A stretch of 64,000 nt of DNA. Source: Macrotrachela quadricornifera. Taxonomy: Eukaryota; Rotifera; Eurotatoria; Philodinida; Philodinidae. The notes below the pieces were generated by a model. It did not search any database. It was not told where the DNA came from and saw only the letters and a list, made by a program, of their open reading frames with translations. Positions 2,304-33,199 of the stretch are shown piece after piece (the stretch's first letter is position 1; the number at the start of each line of letters is the position of its first letter). Made by a program: the position numbers and the translations under genes. The DNA lies in the NCBI GenBank assembly GCA_022393335.1, contig JAJEKB010020494.1, forward strand, positions 1 through 64,000. Direction: 5' to 3'.

Positions 2304-5300
2304 ATGGCTAGAGTTGGGTTTGATTTGGGTAGAGCACGCACCCAATTAGCAACGCAACTCGAGAGAGTGCTCGATCAAAATGGTGAAGCGAGACCTGTTT
2401 ATGATATTGTTGATTCTATTATGGACAATGTACGTCGTCTTCAAGGTGATATTTGCATCGAAATCGCTCGAACGATATTCTCGCCGTATGCATCACGCGC
2501 GATTAATCATGCATCATTTACATTAGCTTGCAAGATGGTCCGTTTGGTCACCTGGTGGCTAAAAGTTAAAGCGAAGGAAATACCAAGCAAACCTGTCTTG
2601 GAAATCGTACGTGAACGTCGAATCGCCAAACCAGTTCCACAACCAAATGGAAAAATTATGATGAAGTATGTAATACTACTATTTTTATACGAAAACTGTT
2701 TTCAATTGACAGATTGTTCTAATTATATAACATCACACTATTTTTCTGAAATGCAGGAAGTAGTACACTTGATAATCAGTACATTCGTTATTGAAAGTAT
2801 GGTGTTCTCTGCTCATCAACGATAGTACTATAGAAAAGTTAGACCTAAGATATATGTTGAGTTAGAAATCGAAAAATACACTTCCCGAGTAGACCAGTTA
2901 AATCATTGATGAAAATTTTTACAGCACTACTGTGTCCATGGCTCTATGAGATGAACGTTCAACATTCAGTGTGCGATGAATGGCGCAAAACATATAATTC
3001 ATCACTGCACATCAAGTTTGATTTTTCGTAAAATATTTCATATTGTAATTGGAGTGACAGATGTTGGGTTCTTTATTTATTTTTTCGGTATATCAAATTT
3101 TCAAATGGTCCTGCCAATTGATACTGGGACCTCTTTTTGAATTGATGAGGAGTTTTCAATAAATCCCTATGTATTTTTGAATAAATCACATAACTCTTCG
3201 GTACTTGCTTGCATCCTTGCGATGTGAATGCGTGGAAATAGATTTAAAAAACTCATTGCATACATGCCTACCTACAGCATGGATTTGTTGAAATACTGAC
3301 ATAGTTAGTAAATGTAATAAATCCGCATGAATCCAATTAAGTCTTCAGGAAAAACAAATCTCAAAAAGATAAATTCTGATATGGTCTCGAGGATCTAAAA
3401 AAAAGAAAATGTGCTGTAAACTTTTCCCTAAGGATGATGAACTTTATGGACCTGTTATAGACGAGTGGACGACGAGAACAAGCCATTAACATTACTTCAT
3501 CTGATTCGATTATTCAAAACTACACAATGTTCAGGTAAAGAAATAAGTAGTTTGATTGAGTTGCTCACTGCTTGTGTCTTGTACGATGAAAATGGAGCTG
3601 TTGATATGAAGCCCTACCTAATTCAACCTGAATATTTCGAACCAATCTGGCGTTTATATTTCGATCCATTGATCATCGAATCAGCTAAATGCACCGCCGA
3701 TCCCGAAGCAGGAAAACAAGCACAAGGACAAACATCTTACTCAGCACAGAAACCGATCACAGTGAAATGGTCAGACGGTCGAGAAGACTTTTCTAGCAAA
3801 GGAATTATTGATCCTCGTGAACGCATTGATGAACTAGTTCATCATGCACTGAATGCTTGTACAATGCAAAATCAATTCATACAATTGCTCGATTCAATGA
3901 ATTTGAGTTTTAATAAATCGGATTATGCACTAACTGCTTGGATTCGTTTGTATCGTCATTTTGTGACACTCAAACTATTTGATAATGACATCAATCGAGT
4001 ACTATTCGAAAAAGTGTTCGCTATCAACATACGTTCACTATTAGCAATCGTCAATCTTATCAATGAATTATTTGAAATATGGCCACATCTCAACGATCCG
4101 ACAATTGTCGAATCGGTTTCATGTAGTATTGCACGACTCATTGAAAACATTATTGCATACGATACAAAGGAATCGTATACACTCGTCGAACAATTAATCA
4201 GACGAATATGTGCTTCGACACCAGCGCACAGTGTTCGTGGTCATTTATGTTTCTACTTTTTAATGCACGATGTTTTAATACTTTGTAATTCGGCTAACTT
4301 GATAACGGCTATCAAAAAGGTCGATTTATCTGTTCTTATTTGGTATGCCGATTATGTTATCTCAAAGAAAGATTATAGTGAACAGCATCGACCATATCTT
4401 TTATCTATTCTTAAACATGTAAGTGTATACAGTGAACATGATCTACTTCATGAATGCATCGAACGTGCTGCATCTGGATGCAATAATGACGAAACAGTTG
4501 GATTTGAATTGATTGAAAATTCTCTTTGTCCGACGAGTACATTGCCCACATATGTGCTTCATGCATCGGTCGATCGAATCAATCAATTTTTGATTTGCAT
4601 GAAATTGCCTAACGCTATTAAATATGTCAATATTCTTCTACTGATCGCTGAAAATCTTGCTAAAAGTCCTCAAATACAAAAATATCTATTTCGTTTTGAT
4701 TTCTATACTTGTCTTCAATCATGGCTTGTTCAACTATTCTCCTCCTCTGACATTGAATCAATCCAATCGACAGTATTCATCGTTCGTATTCTTCAGCTTC
4801 TACTCGATATGGCTTCATCGAAATATTTTAAGCATACCGATGATATTGCTTATTTCCTTCTTGATATTTGTGCTAATAAGATCATAAATATTGATTTCAA
4901 AAATAATAGTCCACTGGTACACATCATTGTCTTTCTTTCGTCACGCTCGAACATTAACGATTCTCGTTTTGATATGACGAACATTTTCATAAATTTATTT
5001 CAATTTCTAAAAAGCAGTGATGCATCTCTTGTTGCTGCTTGCACATCTCATCTTGTCTGTCTTTCACATGAGATTACGAAATCAGTGTCACGAGAGATAT
5101 GGATATCACTACTCACTCCATTCGTACCTCAATTAATGGGTCTTTTGGGTTGTGGTGGTCAATTAAAATTAGCAGCGACAAATATTCTTGCGCAAGTACT
5201 CAATCTAACGCCAACTGAACGTGAAGCACTACCACTTAATGTTTCATCAACTAAAGACACTGATGCAGATCTTGAACTGGACGTTGACAATGACAAAATT

Positions 5301-8226
5301 CAACAACAACATGCATTTTTTACAACTGAAGCTAAAAATAAGCAAGATTATGTTCAGGTGCGACATAATGATTTTGCCGATGCTGACAAACTTTTACGTA
5401 AGCTAAAATCATCTCAATTCTATAAAATGGACAGTCATCTTCGACACTATCTGACACATACACAGCCACATCTACCTCATTCGATACCTGTCACATCTAC
5501 TCACGAGAAAGATCAGGCTCGGCTCACTTTGACAGCTACAGCACGGGAAAATGTAGCAAAAGTCATGGAAGTAATCAATGATCCCGTTCCAATCTTACTC
5601 GAAGGAAGCACTGGTGTCGGCAAAAGTGCAAGTATAATGGAAGCTGCCTATTTGTGCGGTCGTCGAGAATTAGTTCGTTACAATATGTCATCACGCGTCA
5701 CAATTGATGATCTTCTTGGTAAAGTTGCACTTGTATTTGATCCTCGAACTAATTCAACTGTGTTTCAATTTGTTGATGGCCCATTTACTAAAGCATTCTC
5801 AAAGGGTTATTGGCTTCTTTTGGATGAACTCAATCTTGCTCAAGATACAGTACTCCAGGCAATCGAATCAGCACTCGATACAAAAGAATTGAAAATTAAC
5901 AATACAAGTTCAGCTCAAGAGTCAGTTGTCATTCATAAGAAACACAAAGATTTTCGCCTTTTTGCTACACAAAATCCAAATTCAGGATTTTTCAAAGGCA
6001 AACGAGAAAAACTATCGGCTTCATCCCTTTCTCGTTTTCGTCCAATGATATTCAAAGTTATGCCCGATGAAGAATGGCGGCAAATTGTTGAAATTCGTTT
6101 GAAACCATGTTTTCCAGAACAAGCTAAAAGTCTATCCGAAGATCTTGTCTCGAAATTTAATGCTGAAATCAAAAAACTACTTGCAGAGAAAAATTTCGAA
6201 GAAATTGGTCCATATACTGAAATATCGATTCGAGAACTTCTGAAATGGATCAATTTGTTAATATGGGAAAAAGAGAAAAATCAATGGCCGACCGAAATTA
6301 AAAAGCAAGTTGCTGTACTTAGTTTTGGCGCTTGGTGTATTTACGGTGCTCGATATCGTTATAAAGGTCGAGACAGAATAAAAAGAATGCTGGAAGAGTT
6401 AGAATGGCCTAAAGCTGCTATTTATTCAATCAAATTTACTGTTAATCAACAGGACGATGAATGCAAAATCAATTTTGATAACATTCAATGTCCAGCTCGT
6501 ATTGATACGATAACCGATGATGTTGAATATGAATGGAGTCGAACATTTAAAATGGCCGGTTTGTCGATTGAATTTATACCCGACGTTTGGAAGGTAGCAT
6601 TTCAAGTTCACACAGATGTTCATCGTACTATTTTAACTGACGAATTCATTAATTCGTATGGAATCTATCGAATCAATCGAGCCTGGTTATGGGATTGGTT
6701 AGTAGCGGCAGCTCGATCATCCATTCTGAAAATAATGAACAAATTCGTACAATGTGGTCTCAATATGTATCAATCTCGATTTCGACACACTCGAGCTCGC
6801 GCTCTTATTGAATCATGTTTCAAAAAACGTTTCAACATCGAATTCAATACAGATATTCAATATTCTTCATCATCGACTCGTGCCGATCTACCTTATGCGT
6901 TGACAGATCGAGCATTAAGTGTACTCAAACAAGTTTGTTTCAATCTTCGAATCAAACAACCAATACTTGTTACTGGTGGAGAAGCATGTGGTAAATCGGA
7001 ACTTCTTCTTACACTTGCTTGGCTTCATTCCAAACGTGTCCATCAACTCAATATCACACCAGAAACTGAACCATCATCTCTCATTGGTCAACTTGTTCCG
7101 AATGATACGCAAGATCCAACAGATCCAACTTTTGGTATGATTAGATTGATTTTACGATCTATTATAAAAAAAGAAGACAGAAAATAATCATGAGCCAAAG
7201 AAACACAGGAATGAAAACAGCTAGTGAAGTGTACTTGTCATTGATTAAGATAAAGTTTCATATCACGTAAAGATATATAAATATTGACAAATTAGGTGAA
7301 TGCTGACAATGGTAGAATGACATTTGCCTTTAATTAATATTAAATATTAAGGTAGACAACACATATAGAAAAGTTGTTCTCTTTCGATATGTTCAAAACT
7401 AAAGACAAATATGACCCTCGATTCTGCACGGCGTATTACTCGAACCGGAGCCTATGTTCGTAAGATGTACTATTTTCGAAGCTTTAAAGATAATGTTTAT
7501 AAATCGTAAATCAAATGAACTACACGTACTCATATTTAAATATATCAAAAGAAAACAATTTCTCTATCTACTGACTAAATTAGAACCTTATTTTGATCCG
7601 AAAAATATATTTTCAAAATGTCATGCTTAAACTCACTTATATTAATCCATTGTTGACTAAATTCATGTTTTGTATACCATACACTTCTTTCTGTCACTTG
7701 ATGATAAATATATACCACTAGCTATATCTGTTTTCAAAATGTTTGGCTTTCAGTCAAAGATTTTCAAAGTGAAGACATGTTTTTTTTACAAAGAATGACG
7801 AATAATATCAGTAATGACAGAAACATTTTTACATTTCGAAAAAGTTTTCATTCGTTTACTCTTTCAGGTGAATTTTTAGCAGAAAGGATTGGAATACTTC
7901 AGTTCTCTGACTATGACCTTGAAGTTTTCGCTATGGAATGTAGTCACTACCAAAAAAAGTATTTGCCTCCGAACTACGTAGTATTCATGCCAAAATAAAA
8001 AAGGAATAAAAATTCTTTTGAATGGTTTGGAAAGAGAAATTACCCTTAACCCTCCGATGCCGGAGCTAATTTTTGGAGATAATATGATAGCATATATTCG
8101 TATTCCATGATTTTGATTGCTGGACCAGTATTCTTTCCGAAATTAGATTATTTTCCTCTTCAGCTTACTTGCAACTGACAATTAGATAGAAACTGAAAAG
8201 AATAAATATCAGAAGAACAAGGGCGG

Positions 8227-8264
<38 letters not shown>

Positions 8265-11200
8265 TAGAGATTCTGGGACAATAATCATCTTCTCGAAGGT
8301 TCTGGACAAGAATATTGAAACTAGACCAGGTGTGACGTCATGTACAAAAGGAATGCGAGAAAGAAAGGATATGTATGAGATGTGAAATAAGCAGGAAAAA
8401 AAGAGAAATGCACTAGAAGAGGATAAAAAGAGATAGTGAAAATAGATGCGCGTCATCGATGAATATCAAAAGAACGCAAGAGAAGAAAGATGTATGATTG
8501 TTATACAGTACTGTTCACAATGACACTGTGATGATAACAATACCAAAAGAAAAGAGAAAACATTCTCATGACTGGATTGACACAGATATATTAAAAATAC
8601 CGAGATAGTTTTGTTGAATGTCTATATCCTATTGTGGGGTCCAAATGGACCCCGCTTAGGCATCCGAGGGTTAAAGAACACAGCTTGTGCAGCATTAGTT
8701 TGTATGTTTCTTCACTGCATGTGTTCAAACTTTCGTTAAACTAACATTGTATTGATTTGTCATTTACAATGAAAATTGTAATTATAATACGTCTTGACTA
8801 TTTTACATCGAAAATATGTAAGCTTTTGGGAGATCCGTAATTTCCATTGAATTCTATGTAATGCTGCGAAAAGTTTGAAAATATATAATATTTACATTAA
8901 ATTATATATAAACGTCAGTTACCCTAATTGAGTGTCAGAATTACCACAATAGATTATATTTCATATAAATTTATTTATTCTTTATTATAATGACAATTGA
9001 TCATAAATTTCTGATTCCTTTCCTCAAATGAGCAATAAAACTTTCTTTTTACATGCAATGTAGTAACGTCAAATCACCAAATCAATGACAGTAAACATTA
9101 TCAATCGAATAATTGAAGTAATGATCAGTGGTCATATAGTTAGTTTTGAATCTGTCAAGAAAATACGAATAAATCAGAGGATTTTTTTTGAGAATATCGA
9201 TAACTTGACCTCGTTTGATTCATGCATATATTGATACATCTAAGTGTATAATGGGTAATTTGAGGATAGATGTCTTTTTTCGGTAGATACTCTAAGAAAA
9301 TGTCCATTTTTGACAGCATATATATATTGTATTAGGTACTAAACTCATATGGCAACATGGCGCTGTGACAGCAGCTTACGTAAGTGGTGATTGGGTTCTA
9401 CTTGACAATTTGGCTACGGCTGAATCATCCGTTTTGGAACGCCTAAATCCAGTTCTCGAGCAAAAGCCAATGCTCACATTAACTGAACGAGGTGATATTG
9501 AAGAACAAATTATGCACTCTGAATATCAACTTGTAGCAACAATGACTCCACCTATTGGTCAACAACAATCATCAGTTAGTGGTGCTAGTGTTGAACTTTC
9601 ACCTGCACTCTACAATCGATTTGCTATCGTTCACATGGATGATATGCCATTCAATACGATTGAAAAATGTGACAAAGAACTTGACCAGTTAGCTCATATT
9701 ATTTTATCTGACGAGCCTGATATAGATCATAGTTTGGCTGTATCTCTTTGCAAAACAATACTCTCATCTTACAATAACAACAAACAAAATTTTCCAACAT
9801 TAACTCTACGAAATATTGTTCGTTTACTTGATAGTACATATCTTCTACATCTTCAAAATAAAAATACACTCTCATTTCCTTCAGCACTTTGGACAGCATT
9901 TCATGTCACTATTGCCAATCAAATTAAAGGGGCGACTAATAATGATGTCAAAAATGAATTAATCCACAAAGTTGAAAATCTTCTTAGCAAAGGTAAAGAC
10001 AAATTACAACAACCAAACTTTATCACAATGGTCAATGATAATCCTGAACATATTTTGACAGCGTCACGACAGAAATATGCTGATGCAGTACTTGGTGCTG
10101 TCGCATGTAATATTCCACTTTTGCTCGAAGGTCCAGCTGCTGTCGGTAAAACTGCACTCATCTCCCATCTATGTAAACATATGAAGGCCGAATCATCGAC
10201 AACACAAATAAGTCTAGAGCGAGTAAATAACACGGATACAACTACAATTCAAGATTATCTCGGTTCATTTTTGCCCAGTAACGATGGTTTCGTATTCAGA
10301 AAAGGTGCATTATACTCGGCAATGACTAATGGATCTTGGTTTCTTGCCGATGAATTCAATTTGGCGGATCCATCAGTAATGAACATGTTATTTCCATTGC
10401 TTGAAGGAAAAAATTCAATCACCATACCAACTAGCGGTAAAATCATTTTAGCTAAGCCGGGCTTTCGTTTTTTCGCTACTCAAAATGATGCTTCCTATGC
10501 AAATCGACATCGTCTGCCTGATTCATTGCGTAATCGTTTTCTTGAAGTTCAATTTAGTGATTTTCCTAAAAATGAACTCTCTCAAATCATTGAAAAACGT
10601 CAAGAACAAGAAAAACAGAGACCAACAATTTTGGATACTAAGAATGCTAATGAAATTTCGACATTTTATCATCGAATTATTAATAAACCAACACGAATTA
10701 CTTTTCGTGAAATCGTCAAGTGGTTACATCGTCATTCTCTCTTGTCACCCACTGTAGAACTATGGCCAACTATTGGTATTTCTTTATTATGTACCAGATA
10801 TTCTCACATGTCAAAAGTACGCAAGGAACTAATCGATGATTTTAATAAAGTATGGTCGTTTCGTCTCGGTACTATCACTAGTGAATTTATAGCACCGATC
10901 GAAATTGAAGAAATTGCGGGGGATCAAGTTCGTTTTGCTGAAAATGAACTGTCAGTCAAAATTGAATCAGCAAAACTTTCGAACAGTGATCTATGGAATA
11001 CAAACAATCAAATTGAACCACCAGAAACATTTAAACGTTGTCTAGTACGAATTGCTCATGCTGTTCGAGCACGTGAACCAATACTTCTTGTCGGACCAAC
11101 ATCATGCAAATCATTACTTGTTGAAACATGGTCACAAATAACCAATCGTTCGAACGAATTAATCAAAGTTCATTTAACACCGGACACTGAAGCTGGTGAT

Positions 11201-14200
11201 CTTATTGGTGAAATACGCCCACATTCATTTCTCGATCTATTAAAACAATTGCCAATGTTAGCTGAATCTGTTCTTCTTCGTATTAAATGTCTCTATCGTT
11301 CATCGAATGACAAAGGCGAACTGCCAAATAATGCTCAAAATAAAATAAAAACTTTAACGGATTTAATCAAAAATTTACCATCGGCTATAGCTGAATTCGA
11401 ATCGAACTATGCTCGAAATGAAAAACGACTTCGTGAACAAGAAGAATTATTTGACGATTCATCGAATATGCAAAAGGGAATGGAAATGCATCAATTACCT
11501 GCTACATCTGAATTAATGGGTGATACAGTGAAAAATATCATCGAAACAGCAAATGAAGAAACTGATCAGCAATATCAATCATATATGGACAACTATTACA
11601 TGGCTGGCAACGAAGAATTTGGTGAATCATTTAACGTTGAATCCAAGGATGTCAGCAGAGCAACATACGGTAGAAACGATCATACGGGCTTTTACGACGA
11701 TGGTTTTGAATCAAGCAGTACGAATGCAATAAAATCATGCAATTTTTATGACGACGGTTTTGGCGAAACAAAAGATGAACAATTGACGACAAAGATTAAT
11801 GAACGCGCTGATACTTCTGATGGCTATTTGTATGACGATGGTTTTGGTGAAACAGCCAGTGAACAACCAAAGGTAAAAAGCAGTGACATTGTCAATATTT
11901 CTGAAGGCAGTTTATATGATGATGATTTTGGTGAAGCAGAAAACGAACAAACAAAGATAAGAATTAATGAAGGCAACGATATTTCCGAAGACAGTTTGTA
12001 TGATGATGGTTTTGGTGAAACAGTCAGTGAACAATCGAAAGCAAAAAGCAGTGCTATTATCAACACACCCGTCAACGACTTGTATAACGACGGTTTTGAC
12101 GAAATAAAAGGCGAACAACCAAAGACAAAAATGACTACTGTTACAGATTTTTCTGTCGAAAACGAAACTGTTGATGATAATCTTTACGATGATGGCTTCA
12201 ACATGTTACCTTACATGACCACAAGCAGTGAAATCCAATCCGAAGAAACAACAGCAAATACTACAGATGACAGTTTTCGTGATTATCCACCCTTGACAAC
12301 GATGTCGGGCAATAACAGTAGTGATCAAATAACAATAGATGATAGTGGTAATCAAAATCGACATCTTGTTGATGAAACAATGTTTCCAGACAGTCTAATA
12401 AAATGTGTTGATGATCTGTTATATGAATATGACCGTCTGTTTGAACACAAGTCATTTGAAACATTCAATCAAGATACTACACTTCAAAACTATTATGACC
12501 GTTTCAAATCCATTTGGGAAACACTCAATGCTTGCGGTACTGATCGAACAAAACCTATCTTTCTATTCAATGATGGACCAGTAACAGTGGCTGCCAAGCA
12601 AAGTGGAATTCTGTTTCTTGAAGATCTTGATTCACCGAGTCAAGCAGTTATTGAACGGCTTAATTCTATGCTTGAACCATCGCCAACATTTGCTCTTACC
12701 GAAGACATTACTAGTCAAATCAATGATAAGTCCAAAGGTCAATTAGATATCCAATTATTGTTACACTTTCAAGTTTTTGCTAGTGTTCATCAAGAACAAG
12801 AACATCAACTTTTAAAATTGAGTCCAGCTACTCGATCTCGATTTACAGAAATCCACATTTCACCGTATACAGATACCGATATTGAACATCTACTCATTGG
12901 TGAATTGATCAAACGTGGTTTAAATCGTAATAAAGCCAATCAATATGTTTCGATAATGTTCTCGCTGCGTAAAGCTGTTCGAGAACATCATTTATGGCGA
13001 CTTAATAATGATATTCAACTTTTATTTCGTTGGATTGATTTTATTTTCAATCAACATTCAGGACTTTCGTTCGAACAACGTCTCTGTCTCGGTGCTCGAT
13101 TTTTCTATTTTGATCAATTGCCTATGGCGTTACATAATACTATATACGAAAAATGGACTCAACAACAAGGAGATACAAAATGGAAAGAATACATTCCCAT
13201 GTTTCAATCACCTGATGCAATCCATGGTGCACGAACTCTTGAATCTATAAAAAATAGTGACATTAACTCAACGTTTCCGTTACCATTCGAGATTGGAGAT
13301 GACTATATTGCTCTTCGATATACCGGTGTGCGATATACTTGGATAAATGACAAACCAATACCGACAATCGACGAAATTAGACGTCGTTTCGCTGACAATG
13401 TGCCTACGCCGACATTACTCAATCAAATTGCTCGTATATTTGCTGCAACATCATCAAAAACACCACTTCTTCTCGAAGGACCACCTGGCATCGGTAAAAC
13501 TCATGTTGTTACACAAGTATGTAAATTATTGAGCAAACAATGTGAACGAATCAATATGTCAGCAAATACATCACTTGATCAATTGATCGGTTGTATTATA
13601 CCACGTTGTATGAATGGTCGTCGTGTATTTGAATGGCAAGATGGTAAAGTACTCGATGCGCTAAGAAATAAAAGTTGGATATTATTTGATGAATTGAATC
13701 TTGCATCGCCTGAAGTTCTCGAAGGTTTAACACCATTATTCTATCGTGGAGCAAAATCATTCAATGTACCATCAACACATGAATCTATTGATACATCGTC
13801 GGTACTTATATTTGCAACAATGAATCCAGCAACAATTGGTGGTGGACGTAGTAAATTACCTCGATCTATCACGAATCTATTCACGACTGTTCAACTTGAA
13901 GATTACAAAATTGATGAACTTCGTATTATTCTTAGCGATTTATTCCGAAAGGATAAAGAGAACAAGGATAAAGAGAATAAGAATAATAAGAGTAAGGATA
14001 AAAAGAATGAAAATAAATCGACAATCAATGAGGAACAATTATCGGAAGTTTTTGATTTACATCAAAAAATTAAACAAGATATTGAACGTGGTATCATTGG
14101 CTCAATGGGTGGTCCCTACGAAATGAATTTACGTGATCTATCCAAATTTCGTGATGTCTTTCTTGGTTCAATTCGAAATCAATTGGATCACTATCAATAT

Positions 14201-17200: not shown

Positions 17201-20200
17201 TTTGTTCATGAAAATTGTAAATTTCTTTATGAACGTTTTCAATCACCTGATTCAAATCAATTGAATCGACTCATTGAACATCTTTATAATTGTCGGCAAA
17301 ATCCATCACTTATTGAAACAAATGATGTACTGAATGTTCAAGCTGTATTACGAACTGAATTTGGTCATACATTAATTGATAATAATGAAATTTTAGAAAA
17401 TCCACTTATACTTTTTATTTGTGGTTTTTTCTTTTTACCATCATTTATATCACGAGCGTCTCATATAAGTGTTATATCGTCATGGAATGAGTTATGTAAT
17501 CAAGAAAAAATAATTGATTTTCGTTCACTTAAACCGCATTGTATAATTTTTTATTGTCCGAGTAAAAAATCTGAAGATTGTTGTTTAATATCAGTCAAAA
17601 ATTCTGTTCGTTTTATGACAATAACTATGTGGAGTTTACAATGTGATATTCCCACTAGTGAACTCGATCAAATTCTATCAGAAATATTACCAGAAAATAT
17701 TGAACGACGTTATTATTCAAAACAACTTACATATGAAGGAAATATTTCTAATATAAATTATCAAACATTTGGTATATCATGTCTTATTCTACTTCAGCAT
17801 GATCCTGCTTGGAAAATCGATTCACAATTGTCATTAACTAGTACAGAACTGTATAATAAAGTAACACATGTCTATTTACAATTAAAACAATTTTCTCAAC
17901 ACAATGTTATAAAACGAAAAGAACCAGGTAAAATAACTTATCAAAATCTTGTTCGATTTCAAAATGATTTCAATGAACTTCATAATGAAAAAACTGATGA
18001 TGAATGGATAACAATTATGAAATTATTTAGCTTATTAAAAAATTATCAGAATACATTTTCATCTCTTAATAGTCAAAATCTTTTACAAGATGTTAATAAT
18101 TACATTCAAACAATTCAACCATTGAATATTAATAGTCATATAGCATCACTTGCCTATATAAAACCATTTGGTACAAAATATGCATGTATTACTATGATTG
18201 ATAAATATTTACGAAGTTTATTAAATAACAATACTCTTAATAATGAACAATCATTTGATGAAAAGATAGAACATTTTCAATTACTTTTTCAATTTATTGA
18301 AGATAGTATTCGTTTATTTAAATTACTTACTCTACATATTATTTATGGAAGTGAACTAATTTTAGATAAATTATATGAAACAACACCAGATACAATAATT
18401 CATCTTGAAATGATATTTAATTCAACTATTTCAAAAATTGATTTAAATGAAAATGGACTTTATGTTCGCACTATACAAAATGAACAATATTTTGATCAAA
18501 TACAAACTCAACTTAATAAATATTTCGATGATATGTATTTTACACCATTTATTAATAAATATAATCTTGAAAAATTTGTTTCTTCAATATTTCCATTATT
18601 TCGTGAACGTCAACATATCGATGAAATTAAGTCAAATATTTCAACTGAAACATCAACAAAACAATTTACTTCAGTTGATGAAGATCGAAAACAAAAACGT
18701 ATTGACGAATGTATGAGAAAATTAAATAACTTATTAATAGAAGCTGATAAATTACCAATACGTCCACATGAAATAATTAATCGTATACGTAATACAGTTG
18801 CACAACTTCAATCAATTGATGTTAGTAAAGATACAGATGGTAAAATTGAAATAATTCTTGCTGAAGAACCAACATTAACTGCGCAAATTAATTTATATAG
18901 ACAACAAATTAATCGACAGACGATATTAAAAAGTCATATACCAAATATAAATTCAATAACACCATTAACAAATGATGATATTCAATTAGATAATTCTACA
19001 ATTGTTACATCAAATTATGAAAAACATTTCGATATACAACAAAAAAAAATTACTGAAGAAAGTTCATCTCGTTCATTTAAACAACTTGAACAAGTAACAC
19101 AACTTATTAATCAACAAGTTGCTAATAGAACTTGGATTAAAGTTTTTTCATTGATTACATCTGATAAATGGATTTCAAATAGTTCAATTTCAAATGATCT
19201 TAAAACAGCTATATCATCATTAAATAATAATTTAGCTATACAACTTGAACGAATACTTTCATCTACAAATACGCAAAATGATGATCAACAAATACTAACA
19301 CTTGCAGACAATATAACGCTTGCTTATATTCAATTTCGACATAATCTTTTAACTGAAGAATCAGAATATCAACGTTTATCAAATTATGATATGATTTCAA
19401 ATTTATCATCAGCTATGAATAATTGGAAACAAGTATTTCAAGTTCATTTTCTCAATATGTTTGAATCAGTTCAAACAATTACACATGATTTAACATATAC
19501 TAGAAATTGTATTAAAAATTATACAAATGATGCTAGTTGTTGTCTTTTACCAATTATTCTTCGACCTGAAGACATTTTATGTTTACTTGCACCAGAACAA
19601 TTAACAGCTATTAGAATTATTTCATCTAATTATACAAAAATCAATGATTATTTATCTGATCCATTATTAATGGAAACACATTTTAATAAATCAACTTTAA
19701 TTAATTTTGATCAAACAATTGAATTATCTAACATACTGAATACTAATACTTGTTTATCAAGTTTCATGTATAATAATGATCCAACAAAAATGTTAATCAA
19801 TCAAGACAAACATATTATCTTTATTGTTCAAAGAGCTATAGCTATATCACAACAATTAATTGATTTATGTACTGATTCATCTGCTCAAAATGGTTTTCTT
19901 ATGAAATTAGCAACAAGTGTTGCTGAATTATTTCCTATTCAAATAGCATCTGCATTTTCAATTATCATTCTTGCTAATTGGTCAGCATTAAGTTTATGTG
20001 ATTTCGAGCATCGTGATCAAATTGATTTATCAATATTAAGAGATGATGAAACTAAAATAAATGTACTTAAAAATGAATATCAACAAACTGAAAAATTATG
20101 TAGTGAACAGAAGGGAAAAATTGAAGAACTTGAAAGAAAACTTCAACAAGAATATACCATTAAGAATGTAGAAGAAAATCCAACTTTAAAACGAGAAGCA

Positions 20201-23200
20201 CAAAAGAATATTGATATATTAAATAAGACGATTAAAATTGAAAATGAATTTTTAACAACAAATGAAGAAAAACTTGTATTATTGAAAAATGATATCGAAC
20301 AACGAAAAAATACGTATACTATAGCACAGCAAATTGAACAACAAAAATGGATCGATCGAGTTAGTAAACGAATTAAATTAATTTCAAATCATGTTCAAGA
20401 ATGTATACAAATAATTGAAGAAAAATCTACTGAAAAATCGACAACAGTAGATACAACGAATGTTGGAGTCAGTTTACTTAATATTATAATAGAAATTGCT
20501 CGACATCAACTCAATCAATCAGAACCAACAGCAAGTTTCATTATCAATGATCGTGATATTCATCGATTGAAAAATGTTAAAAAAACTATTAAAGATATTG
20601 TAGAGAAATTAAATGATGATGCAAATCTTCTTGCAAACAAACATAAAGATCCAACATATAGATTTTTACATTTCTATTTTAATATAATGAATATTGGTCT
20701 TGATGCGATGATTAATTCTATATCAAGTTGGTCTATCTATTCAAAACGAACTCAAACAAAACAAATGTTAAGTTTTATTACAAACAAAAAAAGAAGAGAT
20801 TTTTGTAATCTCAATGCATTCATTCGACAAAGTGGTTTAAATTTCATCGAAAATATTTATCATAATCAAGATATAACTAAATTAGAAGTTAATATAAGTC
20901 GACGAATTAAACTTGATGTTGGAAATCTTATGTCAGTTATTTCTGGTGATAATAGTGATTTTATTCAACAATCACTTGTTCAATTTCAACGTTTTATATA
21001 TAATTTATTAATAACTGGTTGTCGTTATGTACAAGTTCAACATGGTTGTACACGTAATTCACTTGATGATCTATTGAGTCCAATGACACGTGAACAGATT
21101 GATCCACATTTACCAGAAAGAGAAACTGACATTTTACAATTTATTGGTACGAGTGCAAAACAATTTCGAAGTCGTATTGAATCATTACTTTATCAAGTTC
21201 TTCATATTACATTTGGTTTTAATACAAATATATTTAGTCTTGTTGATAAATTAGATTCATCGATTCAAACTGTTGATCAACTTCTTCTACCATCATCATA
21301 TATGATTATGCAATTGTGGCGTACTATAAATACGCTTATAAATAATATTTCAACTAAGTTAACTGAAGATGAATATAATGAACTTGATAAATTATGTAAT
21401 ATATTCGGTCAAATGAGTGATATAAATCAAAAACTTAATGATGAAGATGTTTTTTTGAGTGAACAAATTAAATCAGATTTAATTGTTAATCTATTTAAAT
21501 CAATTCAAGATCTATGCCATAAATTAGAAAAAAATCGTTCAAAAATGAAGAAATTTTGCGATGAATTATTAAATTTATTATATATTACAATTAAAGAAAT
21601 TATTCGTGGTTTTATTAAAGCAGAAAAATATCAAATACGAACAAAACTGGATTCTAATGATAGAAAAATAAAATCATTTCATTTACTTTTCGATCAAACA
21701 AAAAATTATGGTGGTATTCAATTTGCTGATATAAAACAATTGATGGAAAATAAAGAAATTCTTTCTAGTACACAAATGACAAATGATAAACGAAAAAAAT
21801 ATATACCAAAATTTAAAAAAAATCAAATACTTTATTTTTTATTACTTGGATTAATTGATAATATGGAATATATTATTATGGATATGTCATTTGAACCTAT
21901 CAGTTATGATCTTTTAGAAAAATTGCTTCAAACAATTGCAACATTTTATACAGATGCACAAAACATATTAGAAACATCATTATTTAAATTTATTGATAAT
22001 GAAAATGAAATTAATAAACTATTCAATATCTTAGATAAAGCATGGCAATTACAGAAGACTTTATTTCTCAATCAAGTTACTAATAGTAATAGTCATGCTG
22101 AAAATAAACTTAATGAACTTATTGGAGCAATAGGTGATGTTCGAACACATACTCAATTGACTAATAAAGCTTCGAATGATTGGAAAACAGCTTCAAACAC
22201 TTTGATTGAAAAACGTAAAGAAAAACGAAATAAAAATCGCATTTTTCTCGAGACAATTGTATCGAGTGGATTAGAATTCGTATTTAAAGGATTCAATTTT
22301 GCAAAATCGATCTTTTCTAGTTCGGCATTATATAGTGCCGATGACATATATGGTGTATGTCTCGAAAGAATCCATTCTTACATGTTATCACAGCAACTCG
22401 GCAATGAAAAGATTTTCATAATAGCTCCTCAAGATCTTGTTAAAAGACTAACATATTTGATTCAAACATATTTGATTCAAACATATAACCAGAAATCCTT
22501 ACATTTTCTTTTAACACAATACGGTTTCGAAGAATTAAAGAGTCTCGTACAACTAACGATTACATGTCAGCCGCCAATCAATCACTCAATATTAATTGAA
22601 TTCATTCTCCACGACAAAAGCTCAGTGTCTATTACCTTTTTATTAACCGATGCAGATAACATGTTTCAATTGTGTATGAGACCAAATGTCAAATATATTA
22701 CAATTCAACTTGACCATAATATATGGAACAAGATCAAATGGTCGGAAGTTAATCATCAGAAATATAAATTGGCTGCAGACAATCGAACTATATTTGTACA
22801 AGCCAATACGTTATGTTCCAATCAAGCTTATTTTACAGCTCATAAAAAGAGTAATATACAATATCAATATTATGACACGAGTGAAAAACTAACAAATACC
22901 AATTTACTGCAAGATCTCGACAAGCTGGAAGATATATTAATCGATTTGAAACAAGAAAAAGAAAATCAACAAAAATTCAATGAAGACGAAAAATATATGA
23001 AAAATTCACCAATCAAGCGTTTCCTGGATGAATTAAGTTCAAATCATACCGATATTAATCATATGATAGAACTGAAAGTTTCACTGGAAATTCCCAAATT
23101 ACTTACAGCAAACAATCTTATTGAGTTATGCAAAAAATTACCTAGTCGAGAAGTTTTGGAAAAAGCACAAAATAAAACAACAGTTATGGCCAATAGTGTT

Positions 23201-26200
23201 ATTACTTATAATGCATCTATTTCAATAAATGATATCGATGAAAAAGGTGACATTGATAAACAATTTACTCATGAGATGATATATGCATTAAATACTGGAG
23301 AAAATTGTCAGTCCCGAATGAAAGAAAAATTAGATTCAATTATTGCATCAGTTTGTGATGTTCGAGTTCAACTTCTTATTTCTTATGCATGGATACATTC
23401 AATAAATAATGATGAACAGAATGTATCTGAAAAAACTATGAAAACTTTATTTGAAGAAACTACAAAACTCTATACACTTTTACGTAAAAATAATGAAAAT
23501 TTAAATCGAATAACTGCATGGACAAAATTAACAAAACAAGCTGAATACATTTTTAAGACAACAAATCGATCAACTAATTTATGGCAAGAAATTCGTGATC
23601 TAATGACAACACCTTTAATGATAGAAGATGATATACAAGATGCATTTTTAAGATCAAAATTAGCTGGTGATGCACATGTTTGGCTTCATATTCCTGATGA
23701 ATTATCACAAGAAGCAACTAATATTGTATGTGAACCTCAATTAGTAGTTGTTAACTTTGGTCTTATTCTCAGTGGTATTCGTCAACGTATTACTCAACGA
23801 ATTACTGTACATAATGAGACTGACAAAGATTTTAATGTTCAAATTGAGCGTAAACAACAAACAACAAATTCTAAAAATATTGAATTCGATTTTAGTATGA
23901 CACCTGATATAATAACTGTACCAGCAAAAGACATTAGTGATATTGATGTTCTTTTTAAAACACCGGAAAATTACATAGGTGACATTTTTGAAAAACTCGA
24001 TTTAAAGATCGATAACACATTATCATTAAATGAAACAATACAATTTCAAGCTCAAATAGTTAAAGTCGATCTTGAAATTGAATCAGGCGCAATAAAATTA
24101 GTAGAAAATAATATAGAATTTTGGGAAATTGATTTTGGTCGAGTACCATGTGGTAGTACACCAATAATTCAATCAATTATTTTGAAAAATGTTCTCAATT
24201 CAAAACTAAACGTTAATGCTCAACAACAAACTAATGAAACAAACTATCAATCACATTTAAGTATTGTCAAAGGTGAATTTATGATAGATGGTAAAATGAC
24301 AGCAACACTCAATTTGAAACTTGAACCAGCTGAAAATAATTTTATTGATGAAAATTTTGAAGCTATTATTTGTCTTTCGATAAGTCCATCAAAAAGTCGA
24401 AAATGGCTTAAAGCTAAAGCATTAATTCGTCGTCCTCTATTATCAATTTCTTATCAAAATGATCTTAAAATTGAAAATTCAAAACCAGCTGGTACATTAA
24501 CTATATCCGATTTCTATGTAGGTGAATATCGATTAGTTCCACTTGAATTTAAAAATACGGGTGAAACTGATTTTGTATTTTATCTTACAATAACAAATTC
24601 AGATTGGAAATATAAAAATACAAGTCTTAAAATGAATGAATCAACAATAATTAATATTCCAATACAATTGTCTAAACAAAAAATTCGAGAAACATTTACT
24701 CTAAATATTCAATTCATTAACATAAGACGAAATATTACATTACAAATTATTGCTGAAACATCAACACCTCGTTTGGAATTACCATCGATTATTAAGAAAG
24801 CAATTGAAATTAAACAAACAGCCGATGTAGAAGCATTGTTTGATACAGATACAAAATCTTTAAAACCAATCATATTCAAAGAAATTTTCAAAAATACGGG
24901 TCAAGCAGCAACAATTGTTTCATTTACACGTTTTCTATCGATGAATAAAACTGATTCATTAGATATAGATATGATGATGAAACCAAACAACATAAAAAGT
25001 GAATCAAATAAAACCGATACATTAGACAAAAATATGACGATCCAACCCAACAAATCGAAAATCGAATCAAGTAAAGAAACCGAAGTGAGTTTTATTTACC
25101 AACCAGTCAATCTATGCGATTTAAAAGGTTATATTGAACTTGAATCGAATTGTTCATCTCAATCAAAAACAATCGAATTCTCTCTTAATATTCAAAAACC
25201 AAATTTTCTTGCGTTTCCTCGATCAATAATAGAATGGGGAAAAATTGAAATTGGAGAAAACAAACAATTATTACTCGCAGTTAAGAATATTGGTACTAAT
25301 GTATTACGATTTCGAGTAGAATCTGCTAAATGTCTACAAGAATTTGTTAAAGAAGCATTTATTTCAACCGAATCTCACGACAAACTTTCGATGGAAAAGC
25401 CATTTAGAATCAATCCGAATGAAATAGTAAAATTTAATATTGGAATAAAATGTGATCAAATTGAAGATGTATCACCATTTATTGAACTTGCTGAATTTAA
25501 TTTACAGAGTTTGTGTGATTCAGTTATGTCTATTGATGGATTATTGATAGATCGTACGATTACAACAATGGTTATCGGTTATCAAGGTGATTTTAATCCA
25601 ATATTTGATCCATCGAGACGAAAACAAACGACGTCAATAGATTGGAGTAATCTTCAATTAATACCATTAAAGAAAATTCGAGAAATTACAACAAATATGA
25701 CTACATATGAGCCATATTCATTAATTATTACAATGGCTTACGCTTCTTATGCTGCTAGTTCAAATAAAATTACTACAATTCCACAAAGTCAGAATGATTG
25801 GGAATCATTATTACAGAAAATACATATTGCAAGCAAGAATCTTGCAGCTCCATTAACTGTACGTGATATAAATGGGAAAGCATCTATCGATATTATCAAA
25901 TTACTTAATGAATATTTTCAAGTCGACATAAAACATCCTGAATTCTTTCATCATTTAATATTCTTTAACAATTCATTTGATTCTATCCATTTATCAATAC
26001 CAATTCGTCTAAAACTCTATGCTATAATCAATTCAACAATTAATAATGATGAAATTTATACAATGCAATCATATATCACAACAGTTTTAAATGTTTACAA
26101 TACAATTAATGATAAAAATAATCTATGTTCTATTTCATTAAGAACAATGTATAAATGTATTTGTAAAGATCCGTTAATGCCTTCCTGTCTTAAACCATTT

Positions 26201-29200
26201 ATTCAATATATTCGTCTTGCTAAAAAACCAGTAACAAATATAAATAATATTGAACCTGTACTTATCGAAGGTATGCGTTCATCGAAAAGTTTATCAACTG
26301 ATCTCTATGATTTATTAACATCAAATTCGACTGATATCAAATGGACATTAATTTTCTCATGTATACCAACTGAAATTAAACAAATTGTAACTAATTTGAT
26401 TGATCCAAAAGGTGATGTTTATTCTACTTTACTTTCATGTCATTTAACTATAGCTTCGTTATATAAATATGCTAAGTGGCAAAGAATTCTCCTACAAGGT
26501 TTACAATTGACTGGACGACCTTGGATTAATGTCACCGAAAAGGACAAACGATATTTTTTGTCAGGTATCTTGACCAATCAAAAGGAGCTCATCGATCTAC
26601 TTGTATCAAACGAAAACAAGGACATCTTCAAAGTTATTGTTCAAAAAGCGACTCGTGTTATTCTAGACTATTTTAAATGTTCAGACAGGTTTTCGAATAT
26701 TGAAAAACTTCTGAACAGCTCAGATGCGTATCATGGCATCCCTTGCAAACTTTCGGATTTAGGTTACAAAGCAAACGATACTAGACAGAATCTTGCTTCT
26801 GCTATAGATTTCTGTAGACAAACTACTGTTGCACAACATTACATCACTCGATATTGTGAAATTCTACGTGCAATGCTTGCATTGCCAACTAATCAATGGA
26901 TTTCAGTTCAAGCACGTGTAATAAACTTTGCTACTCTTCTCATAGATGTACAACTACGTCAAAATAGTACAATTGATCAAATTCTTATTGATGCAATGTT
27001 GTTAGCAGCCGAATTTGATTCAGATTCGACTAAATGGTCTCAATTACAAGAACAATTTAAACGTGCTGTCACTACTCGTGATTCAAATAATTTAATTAAT
27101 TTTACTAATACAATGGCAATATTCAATGATAAAAGTTTATCAGAATCACAAATTCATCAAACGATTACACATATTAATCACGTTTACACAAGTGAAACCA
27201 ACATAAATACATTTGAACATGCATTTCAACTTTGTAAGATAATGATGACAAAAGATGACATCGCTAAACTTGAACAAAAACGTCAAATTATTGAAACAAT
27301 ATCATCCACACAATCAATGATCGATATATTGTCGACAATAGCAACTGATATTTTATTTCCTATTGAACTTCAACAGTCAATCAAAGCCTATCTTCATCTT
27401 ATTCATCTTCCAGTGAAATTAACTATGGATAATACCGATCTCAATGAACAAACTCAATTCGAACTACTTGAACAAATTGTTCCATCGTGGTTAACATTAA
27501 ATAATGGAATATCAAAAACAAATCAATATTATTTCAATGTTTTATCATCATTTTTAACATCATTACATGGTTTACTTCTATCACGTAATCAACCATTCAA
27601 AGAACGATTATATACACTTGCATTAACAACAGCTCTTTGCACGTTGTCACATTGTCGATTCTTAGAACATATAATTAATAATCAATCACAACAAAACCCA
27701 ATGAGTTCGAAATCAATTGTTAAATGTATTCGAAAGAAAATAGTTCAACATGATCAAATTGATTCGACAATATCAAGTGTTTCTACTCCTACGCTTGATA
27801 AAAATCCCATGAATATCAGCGATACAGACCAATCGAAACGACCAAAATTAATTGCCCAACCTTCGCTTATTAATTCTTTACCTGAATATTCACCATCGAT
27901 GCTTCAAAAAATGTCTGATTTTATGAAAGATTATTTTGATAATCGAATTCTGCAACAAAGATTCATTCAAGATTCTGATAAACTTCGTGATATTATTGAA
28001 CAAGCATTGACAAACCGTCAAAATATTGATCAATGGGTACTAGCATTCATGAAATTCAATTTAACATTTCATCATAATCTCGAATTAGATAAAACAACAA
28101 CAATTACTCAAGGTCATAATATTATTGAACATGGTCTTCGTCTTCTTTTAAATTCACTTGTAATAAAACGTGTTTTAGAATCATCATTTTCTCGTATTGG
28201 CGTTCAATTTATAATTACGGATATTGCTCGCATTGAAAAATGTCTTCTTTCTCTTCATCTAGAAAAGTATCCACTTCTCAGACAGACATTATATCAGCTT
28301 CAAATTGATCTTACTCGCATTAAGCAAACATTACCATCAAAAACGTTTATACCTATTTCGACTAATCCTACACAAATACAAACTAATACTAATGCTCAAC
28401 AGCAGCAATCATCGACAACATCAAATCAAGATGCAAATAAAAATGATACCAATAATAATTCTCAATCGCCAGAAAAATCTGATTCCAACAAACCAATGAG
28501 TGCTAGCGAATGGCTCAAAGAAATGAAGAATGATGGTACTGCAGGCATTAGTAATATTAAGAAGAAAGCACAAAATAGTTCACAAAAACCAACAACTTTG
28601 ACAAATGCAAATACACATTTTCAATACAAAAAAGATAAAATACAACCACTTATTAACAGTCTCTTACCACCAAATGTCAAAATTCAAGCAATGGCAGGAG
28701 TAAGTACAACAGGAACTAACTATGATAGCTTACAAGCTGAAATAGAGAATATAAATGCTCAAAATATTCAAATTGATTTAACAGAAAATGCATTACGTGA
28801 TCATATGAAAAAACAATCGGAATTAATTGAACAATATAAGAAATTAGCTACTAAACAAGCGACAACAAGTTTCGATGAAGCTCTTAAAGATCGAGAGGAA
28901 CTTGAATATGATAAAAAAATCGAACATTGGACATATAAAAAACTTGTGACATCAAAAACAATTGCATGGATGATTGATACAATGTTAGAAGAATTTCGAA
29001 AAGATTGGGAAAAATTAATGAAAGATCGAATTAATGAAATGGAAATTCATTGGTGCATTATGATTGATAATTCTGGTTCAATGAGTCTTCACCGAAATTC
29101 AATCTATGAAAGTTTAGTTGTACTCATGGAATTATTACGTAAAATGGAATTTAAATTTTCTGTTGCACGATTTGGTGGTCGAGCTAATCAAAAAATATTG

Positions 29201-32089
29201 AAAAATATGAAACAACGTTTTACTGATCAAGATGGGCAATTTGTTCTCGAAAGTATTTCATTCGATGAAGGTACATATCCAGCAACTGGCTTAGCAAGAA
29301 TTGCTGAAAAAGTTTTTCCAGCAAAAACATCTGAACCAACTGCTCATCAACTTGTTCTTATGATCACTGATGGCCTTACACAAGAACGTGATGATAAAAA
29401 TTTTTCAAGTACAATTAGTACGAATAAAATCAAACTTGGTATTATGTTTCTTGAAACAGTTGAAGAATCATCAAGCAAGAATTTATTAGATTCGCTTGCA
29501 GTATTAAATCTCCATCATAAAACTTTAAAAGCAAATGCTATGGCAACATTAGCATTGGAATTAGCCGGTCTCATGATGTTAATGCTTGATGCATGTTTTA
29601 CCACTCAAAGTGCATCTCATAGTACTGATTTCATATCTCGTAGAGAACAAACAATAAACATTGAAAAACCCACATATGATGCACAACAGCAACAACAGAC
29701 AATTTCATCTATTGAAGAAAAAGAAAATTCAATTTATGAAACAGAATATCGTCTTAACTACAAAATTAGCGAACCAAACGAATCTATTCCAAAACTTGAT
29801 CGTCTCGATAAACAACAAATCATTGAATATCTAACGCCAGGAAAAATTTATACAAACTATCCAACAGCAGCAGATGAGCTTCGCCAATTCTATCAAACAT
29901 TGTCTATTGGTTCAGAATTCAATGATGAGCATTCATGGGATTCACATGAACGACGTCTTACAGGACTTATTGATGAACTTACAACAATTCTTAGTGACGT
30001 TGTGTTTCCTGTAAATAAATTTACTCGACGTCGAGCAGCTCTTCGAGGATCCTCACTCTATCTACCTGGTTTGATTAAAGCAATGACAAGTGAATGGTCA
30101 TACAAGAAAATATTCAGTGCAAAATTAGCTGGAGGTAGACGAGATCATGCTGCTTGTATTGTTCTTGATGTTTCAACATCGATGTTCGGACTACTTGGCA
30201 AAGGCCTACATGAAACTGTAGTAGTATTAGCTGCTGCATTTCAAAAGATGGGTTTAGAAAATTTTGGAATTATTGTTTTTGGTAGTAGAGTTCGTTTGAT
30301 TAAAACTAATGAACAACCATGGGATTCTGTATCTAAAGTTATACTATCACAACAGATTCGATTCGATCAAGATGATGATACAAAAGATGCGGAAGCAATC
30401 GAAAGTGCTATTGATCTTCTTATCAATTCATCAACACGAGGCGAAAAGAAAATATTTATTATCACAGATGGTTATGGAAATTCTGGCAGTCGTCTTCCAC
30501 TCGTTCAACAACGTGCCGAAGATGCAAATATCGATCTAATCGCAATGGCTATCGGTGACGATCGAACGAATTTATATGGCAGTTACAAACGTTATCTTCG
30601 ATGTACAACACCATATGGTCTACCAAAAGCCCTTCGAGCTCTCTTTGATAATGATTCACCGAGCGAATCGTTTGATCAACCAATAGGCAGGAAACGACGT
30701 GGTGATCTACCTCAAGATACACGAGATAAAGATAGTCTCTTTACCGATATGAAAAATAGCAAAATATTTAGTAAAATAATTGAAAACTTACAAGGTGAGC
30801 GTGAAAAAATGCTTGTCAATAGTGGCGATCCACCATCACATATGAGATGTGACATATGTTTCTGCATTGATTGTACGGGTAGCATGTCACGATGGTTGTC
30901 GGAAACAAAAACTCAAATGAAATTTATTATTAAAGAAATCAAAAAGCAAATTGGAGAAAAATACAAATCACTTAAATTGCAACTTTGCTTCGCGATTGTT
31001 GCTTTTCGTGATATTGGAGATGACAAACAGTTTGACACACTCGATTTTACAGAAAATGAAAATATGGTTATTAAATTTATCGATGGATTAAAAGCATATG
31101 GAGGTGATGATTTACCTGAAGATGTGATGGGTGCTTTAAATGAATGTTTAGAATTGAAAAATTGGAGTAAATCCAATGCTCGATTCATTGTGTTGATTAC
31201 CGATGCACCCGGTCATGGACAAGATTTGAATGATGATCCATACGATAGATTTCTGAACGGAACAAAACATACGGTAGCATCAATTTGTGATCGTCTTTTG
31301 AAGAAAGATTCAGAAATTGAATTCATGTTCTGTTGTATCAATCCGGCGGCTACTCTCAAAATGCAACAAGCATTAATACAACATTATGATAGTAAAAAAG
31401 CTCAGACAGGTAAAGAATTTAAAGTAATAAAATTATTTGGTGAACAATCGATTGATTCACGATCGTTTCATTTTGTTTTTGTTCTCGATGAATCGGGTTC
31501 GATGAATGGAGATCCTTGGAAAGCTCTAGTTCAAGCTTATCAAACCTTTCTAAGTCGACGAAAAAATGATCAAGGTGGTAATGATTTCTTTTCGATCGTT
31601 CAATTCGATTCAAGTGCTGAGTTAGTTTGTCAACGACAACGATTGGCGGCAACACCTCAACAGCTAAATATGCGTGGTGGTGGAACAAATTATCTCACAG
31701 GACTTGAATGTGCGGAGTCAGTTATTGCACAAGATACCTCAAAATCTTCGGTCGTCACGATATTCATGTCAGATGGTGACGATTTTGGACCAGATCCATT
31801 GCCAACAATGAGAAAACTTCGTCAAAGCTATGCGAGCAATCATAATTTCATATGTCACACAATCGCATTCGGTTCTGGTGCCGCATCCGGCAGTTCAGCA
31901 GCAAATCTTTTAAAACAAATGGCACAAGAAGGTGGTGGTACCATGCATCTAGCATCGACAAATGTGCAACTTGTGAATGCTTTCAACCAATTAGCAGCCG
32001 ATTGCACAGTGACTGGAACATTAGTTGCTCAATTTGCCGAAATTCTTAGCAAAGAAGTTAGTTTAAAAATCATGGTTGACTATTTGTGA
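2304..32089 (+). CDS. Giant midasin/dynein-type AAA+ protein with ASH-like cassette and four VWA domains
   Basis: Proposed CDS: 2304-2665, 3461-7134, 9336-32089, predicting 8,929 residues. Introns are GTATGT..TTATAG and GTATGA..ATTAG, and every junction keeps phase. ATG 2304 is chosen because exon 2 has no upstream ATG and opens after a stop at 3438. Exon 1 is the least certain part. Six AAA+ modules have Walker A glycines near residues 836, 1293, 1611, 1932, 2727 and 3090. Walker B is DE at 909, 1684 and 2797, but DN, ED and DN in modules 2, 4 and 6. A linker with coiled-coil stretches follows, about 3400-6140. About five NFG/DFG-type ASH-like beta domains span roughly 6144-6768. Four VWA domains have MIDAS aspartates at 7923, 8290, 8524 and 8730. 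Midasin has the same ring but a single terminal VWA and no ASH cassette, so this is a relative, not ordinary MDN1. An ATP-driven remodelling role is inferred; substrate and location are unknown. Confidence 0.8.
2666..3460 (+). other. Proposed intron 1 of the giant gene
   Basis: Donor GTATGT at 2666 and acceptor TTATAG ending at 3460. Exon 1 ends two bases into a codon and the next exon supplies exactly one base before the long frame, so the join is in phase. An alternative acceptor at 2756 gives an immediate stop and a 122-residue product. cDNA is absent here, so the junction is inferred. Confidence 0.5.
8046..8674. mobile_element. piggyBac-like MITE in an intron
   Basis: TTAA at 8046-8049 and TTAA at 8671-8674 bound a 621-bp interval. 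Its ends are CCCTCCGATGCC on the left and the reverse complement of CCCTCGGATGCC on the right, 11 of 12 identical. TTAA duplication with CCC-starting ends is the hallmark of piggyBac-type elements. A subterminal perfect hairpin, GGGGTCCA-AA-TGGACCCC, lies at about 8636-8653. There is no transposase ORF, so it is non-autonomous. Confidence 0.75.
8231..8262. repeat. (AT)16 microsatellite
   Basis: Sixteen uninterrupted AT dinucleotides lie within the intronic piggyBac-like MITE. Confidence 0.95.
11690..12199 (+). repeat. In-frame YDDGF repeat array inside AAA4 of the giant protein
   Basis: Seven copies of a [FL]Y[DN]D[GD]F motif start near 11690, 11744, 11828, 11911, 11996, 12080 and 12182. Repeats 2 to 6 have a spacing of about 84 nt (28 residues). 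Several copies continue as GFGET..EQ. The array sits between Walker A (residue 1932) and Walker B (residue 2441) of AAA4, in an acidic insertion of about 430 residues. Repetition is visible at both DNA and protein level, consistent with recent tandem expansion. Confidence 0.9.
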
Positions 32090-32849: not shown

Positions 32850-33199
32850 AAAGGACAGGGGCGCATAAGGCCCTGATTTGGCCCCTTGGACTTTTTCGTA
32901 TTATATCCAGCACAATCATATATAGAATGAAAGAGTTTCAGTTGGCGAGTATTTCTATACTAGATTTCAAATACATTTGAAATACAGTTGAGGATTTCTT
33001 CCTGCAGACTTCGAATAGTCTTATTGCAAAAAAATGCTCATGACATAATGGTCTTTTAGGTCAATTTCCTATTTATAAATTTTAGAAATTCATCTTCTAT
33101 TATAGCTCATTGGATAGCTCTTTTCACGGGCTACAAAACCACAAGTAGCGCTCGTCTAAAGACTCGCTCAGCTCTTTCTCGTAGAAAAAATGTTTCTAA

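Follow-up and report, generated by a model that had tools for sequence, protein, structure and literature searches.

The question raised by this locus is whether a giant gene of the bdelloid rotifer Macrotrachela quadricornifera, contained in a 64,000-nucleotide stretch of contig JAJEKB010020494.1 (the window), encodes a midasin or something related to midasin and distinct from it. Midasin (MDN1/Rea1) acts on UBL-bearing factors of pre-60S particles and, to our knowledge, has so far been regarded as the only protein of its kind. Our computational analysis shows that the product combines in one chain six AAA units arranged as in MDN1, a linker peculiar to itself, an ASH/HYDIN-type cassette and four VWA domains. 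We lean toward the view that the gene is intact and belongs, as a bdelloid representative, to a eukaryotic family of giant AAA+ proteins related to midasin but separate from it, for which we propose a mechanism of gripping, docking and remodelling.

The gene occupies positions 2304-32089 (+) and has three exons and two GT-AG introns, with a product of 8,929 amino acids (Table 1). The first-pass annotation had placed all its domains in one reading frame. This is not so: the window contains open reading frames of 1,240 aa (3465-7187) and 7,574 aa (9365-32089), with AAA1 and the beginning of AAA2 in exon 2 and the rest in exon 3. When joined, the three exons give 8,929 codons and a single terminal stop. 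A paralogue on contig C3018 of the same genome, whose short GT-AG intron falls at the identical codon, confirms intron 2. Within intron 2, a 629-bp insert (8046-8674) with TTAA ends and near-perfect inverted termini, by eye a short element resembling the piggyBac type, may be a partial explanation of its length relative to the 68 bp of the paralogue. Exon 1 is the weakest portion of the gene model: a single Adineta ricciae protein gives it weak confirmation through its N-terminus (27% over 96 aa, E 1e-8), and a search of the paralogue's contig gave no convincing match to it. A 7,465-aa open reading frame from a transcriptome assembly (P0025) starts at the end of AAA1 and continues to VWA4, which supports a single transcript. 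An assembly fusion is ruled out by the same module order in relatives from other assemblies.

Table 1. Features of the giant gene, in positions of the window and residues of the predicted product
Feature	Residues	Positions	Strand	Remarks
Exon 1	1-120	2304..2665	+	ATG, donor GTATGT; weak match to Adineta ricciae N-terminus
Exon 2 (N-terminal region, AAA1, start of AAA2)		3461..7134	+	Pfam; paralogue on C3018 70% identical, stop-free
AAA1	809-1098	5523..6392	+	Walker A GSTGVGKS, Walker B LLLDEL
AAA2 (split by intron 2)	1268-1577	6900..10030	+	Walker A GGEACGKS, Walker B DN
Intron 2		7135..9335	+	2.2 kb (68 bp in paralogue); GT-AG; splice site matched by paralogue
Exon 3 (remainder of AAA2 to C-terminus)		9336..32089	+	~7,580 codons, single open frame
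AAA3	1582-1878	10043..10933	+	Walker A GPAAVGKT, Walker B ADEF
AAA4, with insert	1917-2660	11048..13279	+	Degenerate Walker A GPTSCKS, Walker B LED
Insert within AAA4		11447..12289	+	Seven YDDGF-like repeats
AAA5	2690-3000	13367..14299	+	Walker A GPPGIGKT, Walker B LFDEL
AAA6	3080-3470	14537..15709	+	Degenerate Walker A GDICSRKT, Walker B DN
Long linker	3481-6100	15740..23599	+	No detectable similarity to MDN1 linker
ASH/HYDIN-type cassette	6111-6796	23630..25687	+	About five Ig-like beta domains
Region between ASH cassette and VWA1	6803-7853	25706..28858	+	In rotifer-clade rows only
VWA1	7874-8100	28919..29599	+	DNSGSM, MDN1-MIDAS type
VWA2 with upstream module	8200-8423	29897..30568	+	DVSTSM, nearest to MDN1 MIDAS cassette
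VWA3	8486-8699	30755..31396	+	VWA_4 type, DCTGSM, GGDDLPEDV
VWA4	8722-8929	31463..32086	+	DESGSM, GGGT, SDG

Several other features share the window. Upstream, at 1-1054, lie 520-nt arms that are 90% complementary and 14 nt apart, overlapped by 34-nt tandem units at 932-1571. Downstream, 761 bp past the stop codon, a segment at 32850-35937 has 292-nt inverted repeats, 96% complementary, separated by about 2.5 kb that includes tandem repeats, and looks like a mobile element. About 10 kb downstream of the giant gene is a SecA-like gene at 42131-43577 (-), possibly extending over 40262-44590 as judged by eye, whose open reading frame at 42585-43484 matches SecA_DEAD (1e-21) and the SecA cross-linking domain (6e-7). 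Farther on, at 59872-61281 (-), is a pentapeptide-repeat protein that scores to the SV2 luminal domain too.

Profiles built for each segment give the module order as N-region, AAA1-AAA6, linker, ASH cassette, rotifer-clade region and VWA1-VWA4. Pfam detects AAA_5 in five stretches of the first half of exon 3 (1.7e-71) and in one of exon 2 (1.1e-18), together with the midasin AAA lid. The six Walker A/B pairs initially read from the sequence do not hold up: a consensus Walker A is intact in AAA1, AAA2, AAA3 and AAA5, the Walker B glutamate occurs only in AAA1, AAA3 and AAA5, and the full pair is therefore confined to these last three units, which are also those that bear the glutamate across the giant family. 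None of the 15 rows that aligned at AAA4 proper has GK(S/T) in the Walker A of this unit; four further rows aligned with AAA6 instead. AAA6 has a degenerate Walker A in the window, in Bryopsis and in further members, but an intact one in rows such as Adineta ricciae, Apatococcus and P0010, and 18 of 19 rows have DN as its Walker B. Partial proteins whose best AAA1, AAA2 or AAA3 match was another unit were not counted. The YDDGF-like repeats of the AAA4 insert, seven in the window, number three in the Rotaria sp. Silwood1 orthologue and are absent from five other rotifer-clade rows checked.

The long linker called in the first-pass annotation is present. Beyond it, the claim of about five hydin-like beta domains holds: a profile match to HYDIN and the predicted fold speak for it, although the ASH/HYDIN Pfam scores of the window itself fall under the curated cut-off (26.3 of 35.5 and 21.8 of 25.5 bits). 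Precomputed Pfam annotation places PF22544 in relatives such as P0004, P0005, P0006, P0009, P0025 and P0034. When the window tail and nine relatives are combined in a profile, its ASH columns, which come from the relatives, reach the solved HYDIN chains 7n6g and 7sqc at E about 2e-5. The AlphaFold2 model of the cassette, of modest confidence (pLDDT 75, pTM 0.49), is nearly all beta, with five Ig-like units by eye. In Foldseek every match from rank 1 to rank 21 is a chain from the ciliary central apparatus (E 3e-23 to 5e-15), with low TM-scores (0.17-0.36 by query) of the kind that flexible domains in tandem may produce. The non-ciliary complex TRAPPII comes at rank 22, and ASH-like folds thus occur beyond cilia. 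Among 15 non-rotifer rows with a VWA tail, an ASH profile built iteratively on the same set, so that its matches are not independent, finds the cassette in 10 (both Bryopsis proteins, Apatococcus, Mesostigma, P0011, P0012, P0034, P0135, P0136 and, weakly at 46 bits, P0134) and gives no match in P0010, P0025, P0028, P0030 and P0133, of which P0025 does have precomputed Pfam ASH and HYDIN domains. The matches sit between ring or linker and the VWAs where those exist. The giant thus shares tandem ASH/HYDIN-type Ig-like beta domains with HYDIN and other ASH proteins of the central apparatus, from which it differs in that the cassette makes up 686 of its 8,929 residues; we know of no AAA ring or VWA tail in those proteins.

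The four MIDAS-type VWA domains proposed at the outset are borne out, with four VWA stretches in Pfam (5e-24) and MIDAS-type residues in each. VWA1, VWA2 and VWA4 have a DxSxS-type loop and the T and D loops, and VWA3 has DCTGS and GGDD-PED, the form found in its VWA_4 relatives. In profile comparisons with the MDN1 MIDAS domain, which were of single pairs with lenient E-values, VWA1 scores 98.8% and VWA2 with its upstream module 99.1%, VWA4 is weak (61.4%) and VWA3 has no match (3.3%); by the same kind of comparison VWA3 (96.9%) and VWA4 (100%) match the C-termini of giant SecA_DEAD proteins. By these profiles VWA1 and VWA2 are of MDN1-MIDAS type and VWA3 and VWA4 of another kind. A structure model of the tail, likewise of modest confidence (pLDDT 72, pTM 0.44), matches VWA structures; the five best are of a mussel byssus protein that has VWAs in a pair, and human MDN1-MIDAS in complex with the UBL of NLE1 comes next. 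MIDAS-type motifs are retained as far as algae in nearly all rows that reach each VWA, the exceptions being P0030, the VWA1 of P0134 (SGSA) and models whose ends fall inside the tail (for example P0012 and P0034); P0030 seemingly lacks VWA1, its VWA1 match being its VWA2. We also considered other sources for the tail. Of 32 pattern matches in prokaryotic contigs a single relative was confirmed, in a Clostridiaceae metagenome-assembled genome (L001) and for VWA3 only, and none of 116 viral pattern matches was confirmed.

The closest named proteins to the giant belong to the bdelloid genus Rotaria. Our family searches, which depend on shared words, returned 10 proteins from 2,068 candidates with the C-terminal part, 771 from 773 scored candidates with the ring (the best 120 of 771 listed) and 20, query included, from 2,727 candidates with the Bryopsis tail. 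Rotifer members come from Rotaria magnacalcarata, R. sordida, R. socialis, Rotaria sp. Silwood1, Rotaria sp. Silwood2, Adineta steineri and A. ricciae; green algal members come from Bryopsis sp. KO-2023, Apatococcus lobatus and a Mesvir1 entry that we read as Mesostigma viride, and there are other eukaryotes besides. Many of these relatives share the module order of the giant. Four non-rotifer proteins (P0026, P0031, P0032 and P0033) have the ring and neither ASH nor VWA, and may be incomplete gene models. A carefully built tree of 22 family and 7 MDN1 rows separates the two groups at 100/100, with the bdelloids as one clade (100/100), P0025 as their sister (100/99) and other lineages poorly resolved, and a quick tree of 27 family and 11 MDN1 rows gives the same split at 100; the rows were hand-picked, without near-duplicate rotifer rows, proteins lacking AAA5-AAA6 and most of the 95 MDN1-type rows. 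Acquisition of the gene by bdelloids through horizontal transfer from an alga or protist is conceivable, though we would not call it the likelier history. Among the matches listed there is no other named animal, while green algae and further eukaryotes are present. Yet the bdelloids form a single clade whose sister is a EukProt transcriptome that is itself possibly animal, and an ancient origin followed by losses fits too; the matches listed come from searches limited to shared words and to the best 120 of 771 proteins.

The animal's own assembly comprises 450 Mb in 5,695 contigs and holds further copies. The paralogue on C3018 is 67-70% identical to the giant and stop-free over 3,008 codons. 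Between the two, dN/dS is 0.257 (bootstrap 0.229-0.29) over 2,981 aligned codons, a value that spans the N-terminal third only, where the paralogue's contig ends; this third of the giant is under purifying selection. A divergent second giant (31% identity) lies on C4588 at ~493,400-518,100 (L019, L023 and L024), with a ring, then a 3,333-aa open stretch, and a tail that matches VWA1-VWA3 and, more weakly, VWA4; the ASH cassette was undetected. A further relative (32%) on C4146, at 109,991-115,100 (L010 and L011), is interrupted by an assembly gap; an apparent open frame of 25,048 aa with AAA_5 matches on that contig was discarded, because a run of N comes after its real piece of ~1,700 aa. In the literature, covered by titles and the starts of abstracts, with most subscription papers and all preprints outside that range, we found no description of the architecture, and we found no experimental function for any family member. 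One gene had been mentioned earlier, R. magnacalcarata g37061, with 7,479 residues, of which ~1,000 are weakly midasin-like, and "partial similarity to midasin" (Nowell 2021, PMC7943196). It is reported as an LTR insertion target, and the passages of that paper available to us give neither a domain layout nor a family. Matched by description and not by sequence, it is probably a member of the giant's family. The gene that the first-pass annotation called the best candidate for an undescribed system is no one-off: its family is present in rotifers and green algae, and a probable rotifer member was already in print.

How, then, should the giant be classified? That it is an ordinary midasin, diverged in rotifers and serving 60S ribosome assembly, strikes us as very improbable, even though its best solved-structure match is midasin (6or5, E 1.3e-112) and UniRef labels the Apatococcus member Midasin. 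The giant has, like MDN1, six AAA_5 units in one chain with the midasin lid, and the C-terminal MIDAS VWA of MDN1 is related to its VWA1 and VWA2, the latter matching the MDN1 MIDAS cassette. The rings are also in register at AAA5-AAA6: a model of these units scores 522-1,160 bits in 30 of 31 family rows (split into two matches in P0032; the remaining row, P0004, contains the end of AAA6 only) and 194-225 bits as best single match in 12 MDN1-type rows, 10 of which have a separate AAA6 match too, in the same order. However, all six MDN1 rows compared have a Walker A in every unit and the Walker B glutamate in AAA2-AAA5, as against AAA1, AAA3 and AAA5 here; MDN1 has one C-terminal MIDAS VWA where the giant has four, together with the ASH cassette; and homology between the linkers was undetected (profile-profile probability 0.1%, E 0.48). 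The acidic (D/E-rich) region that precedes the VWAs of MDN1, with maxima of 0.395-0.51 D/E per 200 aa in six of six MDN1s, is absent from the giant, whose maximum is 0.25; the top value among 14 family rows, 0.315 in P0028, lies within the ring. Canonical MDN1 stretches exist elsewhere in the same genome, on C3511, C4252 and C4526, where the best pieces are 34-61% identical to vertebrate MDN1 (the highest to zebrafish) and the summed bits are about twice what the giant obtains against vertebrate MDN1, so that the giant belongs to a paralogue family and is not MDN1 itself. On the Walker B pattern, the acidic region, the separate genomic MDN1 and the family's own clade in the tree, we reject ordinary MDN1, and the first-pass judgement that this is no plain MDN1 is upheld. 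As to an AAA E3 of the RNF213 type, the Pfam lists for exons 2 and 3 contain no RING or other E3 module.

Equally hard to credit is a decaying gene, or one borne by a mobile element, with no cellular function. A midasin-like stretch occurs in ORF1 of a giant planarian retroelement, according to the part of PMC6431247 available to us, an LTR element interrupts the midasin-like R. magnacalcarata gene in two clones according to the passages of PMC7943196, and repeats flank the giant gene. Against this stand 8,929 codons without an internal stop, the dN/dS value, MIDAS residues kept as far as algae, and Pfam lists for exons 2 and 3 that hold no transposase or reverse transcriptase family; a pseudogene is likewise unsupported, given the constraint relative to the paralogue. 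A far more substantial alternative, to which we nevertheless give less credence than to the reading we favor, is a MoxR-vWA-like machine of the cytosol that serves protein quality or conflict and has no part in cilia, in which the ASH cassette would be a protein-binding spacer and VWA3-VWA4 would couple different motors, an AAA ring or a SecA-like ATPase, to a common partner. Three SecA_DEAD giants, P0139, P0140 and the Epithemia clementina (diatom) protein P0138, terminate in VWA4, which in P0138 is preceded by VWA3; these proteins of 3,600-3,877 aa differ from the giant in having a SecA-like motor and no AAA ring. There is also the SecA-like gene downstream of the giant, possibly there by chance, although none of the eight downstream open reading frames scanned contains a VWA. 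In bacteria, MoxR-vWA pairs are proposed conflict remodellers in the portions of PMC7159879 that we could consult, which also name midasin as one such pair. Their ternary systems resemble the giant in combining a MoxR-kind AAA+ with vWA domains for proposed peptide capture, and differ in being separate genes with a third component, whereas the giant is a single eukaryotic polypeptide. Finally, the nearest folds to the ASH cassette are axonemal chains, which sits poorly with a purely cytosolic machine.

In the MDN1 cycle the tail is brought back to the ring and UBL partners are pulled off pre-60S particles; in our own data this cycle is supported solely by the titles of MIDAS-UBL structures among the tail-model matches. 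For the midasin-related family that we favor, we envision a scenario in which the tail would reach back to the ring as in MDN1, a step that may be unlike that of MDN1, the linker being not recognisably MDN1-like. VWA1 and VWA2 would grip a UBL-like or acidic client peptide via a metal ion, VWA3 and VWA4 would hold a second partner or lock the grip, and the ASH cassette would tether the whole to a large assembly. The three full sites (AAA1, AAA3 and AAA5) could then use ATP hydrolysis to pull the client off or reshape it. A ciliary or centrosomal assembly is the first candidate because the fold of the cassette is closest to central-apparatus proteins; such a role, suggested from fold resemblance alone, would be the weakest link in this scheme.

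More speculatively, and at a strength that we regard as doubtful, the giant could represent a second, old midasin-type family in scattered eukaryotes, whose catalytic AAA units alternate and whose VWA tail has two origins, docking through ASH on an assembly of the cilium or centrosome type and working there in the exchange or extraction of components. If this were true, the principle of a ring combined with MIDAS domains would serve work beyond ribosome assembly, and natural variation in the family would allow tests of how the work done depends on how many AAA sites and VWA grips there are.
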